From NCBI GenBank assembly GCA_031282465.1, contig JAITDR010000138.1, forward strand, positions 1-10,849: a DNA stretch of 10,849 bases, in the 5' to 3' direction. A program made the position numbers and the translations under genes. Shown piece by piece: positions 5,211 to 5,253 of the stretch. This DNA is from Desulfovibrio sp. GTDB taxonomy: Bacteria; Desulfobacterota; Desulfovibrionia; Desulfovibrionales; Desulfovibrionaceae. Numbering within the stretch: position 1 is the stretch's first letter; every line of letters begins with the position of its first letter. Under the pieces are notes generated by a model. It was not told the DNA's origin. It was given only the letters and a program-made list of their open reading frames with translations, and ran no database searches.

Positions 5211-5253
5211 TGTGTGTGTGTGTGTGTGTGTGTGTGTGTGTGTGTGTGTGTGT
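5211..5253. repeat. (TG)21 dinucleotide microsatellite
   Basis: An uninterrupted run of 21 TG units plus a final T occupies 5211-5253. Read on the transcribed minus strand it is a CA tract. It lies about 237 bp upstream of the antitoxin start and about 64 bp downstream of the predicted transcription start. Tracts of this length are uncommon in bacteria, prone to slipped-strand length change and able to adopt Z-DNA. It is not inside a credible gene, so any effect would be on transcription or on the mRNA leader. Confidence 0.95.

Follow-up and report, generated by a model that had tools for sequence, protein, structure and literature searches.

Gene switching by simple repeats is best known from pathogens, and the textbook sigma-54 promoter has no long G-free microsatellite starting at its -12 element. 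Repeat-tuned promoters are reported for meningococcal nadA (PMC2791445), Helicobacter pylori sabA (PMC4081817) and Mycoplasma vlhA (PMC6258824). The pilus of Streptococcus gallolyticus is reported to undergo phase variation by an attenuation-like mechanism (PMC3894217). A search of open-licence PMC full text, judged by titles and the first parts of abstracts, returned no report of repeats at the starts of sigma-54 promoters.

The window, i.e., the whole stretch of 10,849 nt analyzed here, is contig C99 of a Desulfovibrio sp. MAG (1.96 Mb, 277 contigs, 67% complete). At positions 5211-5253 it carries a (TG)21.5 tract of period 2, for which TRF reports 100% matches without interruption, in agreement with the sequence-only reading, which had described an uninterrupted dinucleotide tract of the slippage type. 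The tract is real and chance is excluded. The features relevant to it, all on the minus strand, are the following.

306-866, minus strand: hexapeptide-repeat acyltransferase (Pfam).
863-2050, minus strand: DegT/DnrJ/EryC1/StrS aminotransferase (Pfam).
2151-3203, minus strand: Gfo/Idh/MocA oxidoreductase (Pfam).
3200-4375, minus strand: GumK-like glycosyltransferase (Pfam).
4372-4755, minus strand: PIN-domain toxin (Pfam PIN, over cut-off).
4755-4973, minus strand: Phd-like antitoxin, 72 aa (Pfam Phd/YefM at 21.1 bits, below the cut-off of 29.8).
5130-5157, minus strand: terminator-like hairpin CCCCGTCG-N6-CGCCGGGG (5157-5136) with CTTTTT behind it, between the tract and the antitoxin gene.
5211-5253, minus strand: (AC)21.5 tract (TRF), with a predicted start site near 5243 inside it.
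5255-5268, minus strand: sigma-54 -24/-12 box GGCACGATTCTTGC, with GG at 5268-5267 and GC at 5256-5255 (pattern match 5255-5269).
5324-5352, minus strand: sigma-70-like TTGACA-17-TAAATC, with TTGACA at 5352-5347 and TAAATC at 5329-5324 (from the sequence and sister copies).

On the minus strand the box GGCACGATTCTTGC is followed by a single T and then by (AC)21.5, the repeat thus starting one base past the -12 GC. As in sigma-54 promoters, GG and GC of the box are ten bases apart and TTGC occupies the -12 position, and the usual distance from such a box would put the transcription start near 5243, within the tract. Both rpoN (PF04552, E 1.2e-59) and enhancer-binding proteins are found in the genome, the activator domain PF00158 having 12 matches (11 strong and one weak) and matching 14/14 control genomes as well. 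The box directly adjoining the tract was overlooked in the sequence-only reading, which pointed instead to a good leftward promoter further upstream. TTGACA with a 17-base spacer is indeed present there, and similar sequence lies upstream of several sister copies, but the -10 element TAAATC fits the consensus at 3/6 positions and the pair is absent from the promoter-scan output for the window. The tract, which had been placed in the leader, does lie on the promoter side of the leftward cluster, but what it covers is the predicted sigma-54 start and not the interior of a sigma-70 leader. Several copies elsewhere (L028, L030, L039, L048, and others) have, by eye, an inverted repeat that immediately precedes the tract when the CA strand is read and whose arms vary between copies and remain complementary; since it ends in TGATTTTTGC, this terminator-like hairpin overlaps the -24/-12 box.

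The tract was said to lie outside any coding frame, and no credible gene crosses 5211-5253. The plus-strand frames overlapping it are mechanical CVCV readings and not genes, and a coding-frame switch was rejected, a credible frame over the tract being absent. The antitoxin start is 237 nt downstream of the tract. The adjacent Phd-like and PIN genes form a putative toxin-antitoxin pair, and the proposal that the tract heads a leftward cluster of such a pair and glycan genes is borne out by the Pfam families, with Phd below its cut-off. To the right of the tract, also on the minus strand, Pfam identifies a CusF/CusB/CusA-type efflux set. GC-rich intergenic stretches, GGGGCTCCGCCCC-like and GGAAATCATTTCC-like, recur by eye at 2080-2140 and 10200-10360 of the window, and are perhaps an extragenic repeat.

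The sequence-only reading regarded a length switch at this place as an unusual design. (TG) tracts with a length of at least about seven units occur five times in the MAG (12, 16, 18, 21.5, and 23 units), and the arrangement recurs in several phyla. All five are preceded on the CA strand by exact GG-N8-TTGC, the repeat starting at the GC or one base after it. In the genus, tracts were sought without the box in the query, and the six fixed letters of GG-N8-TTGC were scored near the tract start. (TG)8 tracts occur in 11/15 genomes (n = 39), with the exact box at 29/39 and five of the six letters at 6/39; the remaining 4/39 (L035, L038, L053, and L054) have a different flank in common, probably a prophage end. 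For positions picked at random within these loci the figures are 0.9% for the exact box and 9.6% for five letters or better, so a five-of-six box is weak by itself. On the far side of the tracts the exact box was found in 0/39.

In the family, the tract is present in 28/285 genomes. Outside the genus there are 54 tracts, and the 39 inspected comprise 29 with the exact box, four at five of six letters, and six scoring lower, one of which (L411) has a box slightly beyond the distance limit; the five inspected tracts without a box are in G026 (four) and G193 (one). G026 belongs to another genus, and its tracts at L407, L424, L426, and L427 are (CA)n tracts away from a sigma-54 box. The 15 uninspected tracts consist of 14 at matches of the box + (CA)8 pattern and one interrupted tract (G282:C97). 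This pattern matches in 15/288 family genomes and 3/44 genera, and its reversed control gave none. Some intergenic-looking box matches in the genus (L328, L330, and L296) have G-rich or ordinary starts, and the repeat is therefore not required at each sigma-54 promoter.

Over GTDB species genomes, the box + (CA)8 pattern was matched in at least 117 stretches, in a sample that may be uneven. Among the matches listed are those of Desulfovibrio, Prevotellaceae, other Bacteroidales, Treponema, Betaproteobacteria, and Ca. Adiutrix, with others from Nitrospirae, Planctomycetota, Kiritimatiellae, and Pseudomonadales. By a putative grouping based on accession series and isolate codes, 94 of the 117 matches listed are of termite-gut origin and 23 are other. 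The accession series JAIR-JAIT is taken here to consist of termite-gut MAGs, and Ca. Desulfovibrio kirbyi is presumably a termite symbiont. A literature search for the JAIR-JAIT isolate codes found nothing relevant; termite-gut MAGs are described in one paper, in passages that do not give these codes (PMC9137090). WRMF, WRKX, and WQTW were assigned from passages naming Th196 and Cu122 as termite hosts and giving the accession range WQRH-WRNX (PMC7024585). Of the five consensus positions that the pattern does not fix, at least four agree in 108/117 matches listed, against 12.5% expected with equal bases; the consensus is weaker in the 23 other matches, which likely include chance matches.

Twenty other genomes from several phyla, two of them Desulfovibrionaceae, were drawn from the matches listed, and their (CA)8 tracts with a C start were taken. 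The exact box precedes 48/53 tracts and a variant 3/53, and the remaining 2/53 are parts of a single interrupted tract that borders a contig end (G282:C97). Each of these genomes had been selected for at least one box + (CA)8 match, and with the 20 selection tracts set aside the exact box is found at 28/33. Window-type leaders are also seen at L150 and L196, although these are binned to other phyla (a Prevotellaceae bin and a Holosporales bin, respectively), by either transfer or mis-binning.

Different repeat units occupy the same place. The box-only pattern has matches in 15/15 genomes of the genus, and this search found (ACTC)7 in G002, (ACTT)16 and (ACTT)9 in G012, and (TC)14 to (TC)30 in G005 at the box position; (TC) is also found at the box in G009 (TC)21, G010 (TC)16, G011 (TC)17 and (TC)20, and as a short (TC)5 in G004. 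Among the 20 other genomes, five have (TC) tracts at the box, namely the MAGs of Adiutrix (eight sites), Treponema (seven), Deltaproteobacteria (five), Spirochaetaceae (one), and Prevotellaceae (one), and the reversed control gave none. None of the units CA, TC, ACTC, and ACTT contains G on the sense strand, and this is also true of the compound (CA)n(CT)n repeats that follow the box at L110, L131, L147, L184, and L198. The G-free run was measured behind 90 box matches, of which a few enter twice and many are chance matches in genes; it falls into two groups, of up to 11 bases (n = 59) and of 14 to 116 bases (n = 31). In 12 copies without a long perfect repeat, chosen by eye, G makes up 29/288 of the first 24 bases, 164/720 of the next 60, and 200/720 upstream. 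Exceptions to the G-poor start are L328, a clear one with eight G, and L303, L316, and L362 with three to four G. The placement of G-free repeats at putative sigma-54 boxes is well supported.

Within the 160 nt that follow the tract, 33/46 Desulfovibrionaceae copies have a terminator-like hairpin, compared to 0/46 upstream on the same strand and 3.7 expected from shuffles, and by eye a second hairpin is often present. In the collection set the count is 25/73, against one upstream and 2.4 from shuffles. The window leader folds mildly better than its shuffles (z -1.9, 9/200 equally good). What the sister leaders have in common is the box along with the tract and CCCCGTCG..CGCCGGGG with T behind it; a TTGACA..GCTAAAT-like sequence is shared in part. 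Pfam confirms a PIN gene behind a window-type leader at three places, namely the window, L023, and L024; at L027, L033, and L040 the frames behind such a leader are of PIN-fitting size, size being the sole basis.

A crude frame calling was applied to 148 elements: of the 94 whose nearest long downstream frame could be judged, 81 have it on the sense strand (81:13), and for the nearest upstream frame this holds in 60/118 (60:58). Families behind the tracts include, in a first scan, lactate permease, HD-GYP response regulators, an activator with PAS domains, BrnQ, FecR, an ABC permease, PIN toxins, and a glycosyltransferase, and, in a second scan, TonB-receptor plugs, chemoreceptors, CheW, UDP-GlcNAc epimerase, a DNA methylase, a LuxR-type regulator, an ECF sigma factor, and a multihaem cytochrome. 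The proteins scanned at L032, L046, L051, L053, L054, L147, and L166 gave no family match, and the two downstream proteins inspected in Ca. D. kirbyi gave weak family matches only.

A tract length differing between relatives, as anticipated for a slippage-type repeat, is seen at the orthologous lactate permease site, a locus other than the window's own, with 12 units in G000, 32.5 in G007, and 25.5 in G013 (three species). The lactate permeases of G010, G014, and G001 have protein identities of 95%, 91%, and 76%, respectively, and GG-N8-TTGC, (CA)5, and (TC)5 are all absent from the 600 bases before these genes. A mobile DNA repeat was considered for such gain or loss and rejected, since defined ends were not found. 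At L115 some 160 bases separate the (CA)18 tract from the start of a tyrosine integrase (Pfam PF00589), and ends like that of L115 border (CA)n tracts in G007, G008, G010, G013, and G014. Two end types can be distinguished, one at L035, L038, L053, and L054 and the other at L057, L060, L061, L109, L115, and L173; both ends were never seen at one locus, and their pairing is thus presumed. The (CA)n repeat seems to be a phage attachment site there.

The reading preferred here, with a probability of roughly 0.7, is that the tract forms the part of a sigma-54 promoter that is transcribed first, that a G-free start is selected, and that slippage tunes read-through of the hairpin. RNA polymerase carrying RpoN would be opened by an enhancer-binding protein and start inside the repeat, and the mRNA would therefore begin with an unstructured G-free tail. 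The selected property would be a G-free, C-containing first stretch of RNA and not CA as such, simple repeats offering an easy and mutable route to it. Slippage would then yield heritable variants in leader length and graded read-through of the leader hairpin, which, as the control point, would grade expression of the Phd-like/PIN pair and the glycan cluster. The data establish where the repeat sits and on which strand; that a G-free, C-containing RNA start is under selection, with the hairpin controlling, is the most likely view of its mode of action, which is deduced from the arrangement of the elements.

The strongest rival is a pure contingency locus, where hypermutability alone is selected and length switches or grades the gene irrespective of base composition. 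Such a role, a serious possibility to which we give clearly less than even odds, would fit the uninterrupted repeats of 8 to 58 units, including that of the window, the orthologous length differences at lactate permease, and targets such as glycosyltransferases, receptors, and a DNA methylase. It does not predict that every unit met at the box (CA, TC, ACTC, and ACTT) is free of G when read on the sense strand, a set from which other units could be missing since CA and TC were sought by name and ACTC and ACTT were met in box matches; nor does it predict that the 12 copies chosen by eye, without a long repeat, are still G-poor (29/288 against 200/720 upstream), except L328. Neutral expansion, with the GCA of the -12 box seeding slippage under weak repair and the tract doing nothing, would likewise account for variable length and for presence or absence at lactate permease. 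It is improbable, as it predicts common tracts away from the box, of which few are seen, and GCA cannot seed ACTC, ACTT, or TC units.

The frequent terminator-like hairpins of the Desulfovibrionaceae copies, often followed by a second one, would also suit a stand-alone small RNA, short and repeat-tailed, made from a sigma-54 start independently of the next gene; the strand bias toward the downstream gene, with none toward the upstream gene, renders this unlikely. Alternating purine-pyrimidine DNA can flip, and (CA)n is the commonest unit seen at the box, so that (TG)n might be envisaged to act at the promoter as Z-DNA or as a supercoil sink, effects of a kind suggested in the sequence-only reading. 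Since (TC)n, (ACTC)n, and (ACTT)n, which are not alternating purine-pyrimidine, can replace it in the same place, Z-DNA is rejected as the general reason and is very improbable. Other candidate mechanisms are CA-specific RNA binding (Hfq, TRAP-like), Rho loading, and GTP-independent initiation.

Somewhat less assured than the preferred reading, though still favored, is an undescribed promoter class in which sigma-54 transcripts would begin in a G-free microsatellite, present in many copies per genome and in several termite-hindgut phyla, by convergence or transfer. It would provide sets of surface, transport, and chemotaxis genes with a mutable leader. Bacteria that are not related to each other, many being symbionts of termite guts, appear to place G-free repeats at precisely the same position of sigma-54 promoters. 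This raises the questions of why the first transcribed bases of such promoters should lack G and why termite guts would favor these repeats, and it provides a signature by which a mutable gene set can be recognized in the sequences of uncultured bacteria.

Compared to known systems, the elements described here are like sigma-54 (RpoN) -24/-12 promoters in the GG-N10-GC spacing, the TGGCAC..TTGC-type box, and the presence of rpoN and activators, and differ from the textbook form in the long G-free microsatellite that begins at the -12 element. In nadA, sabA, and vlhA, a simple repeat of variable length likewise lies near the promoter and reportedly can change expression. There the repeat is reported to be at or upstream of the promoter elements, whereas here it follows the sigma-54 -12 element and occurs in many copies per genome. 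Attenuation, reported for the S. gallolyticus pilus in an abstract whose beginning does not mention sigma-54 (PMC3894217), is for the present leaders a proposal.
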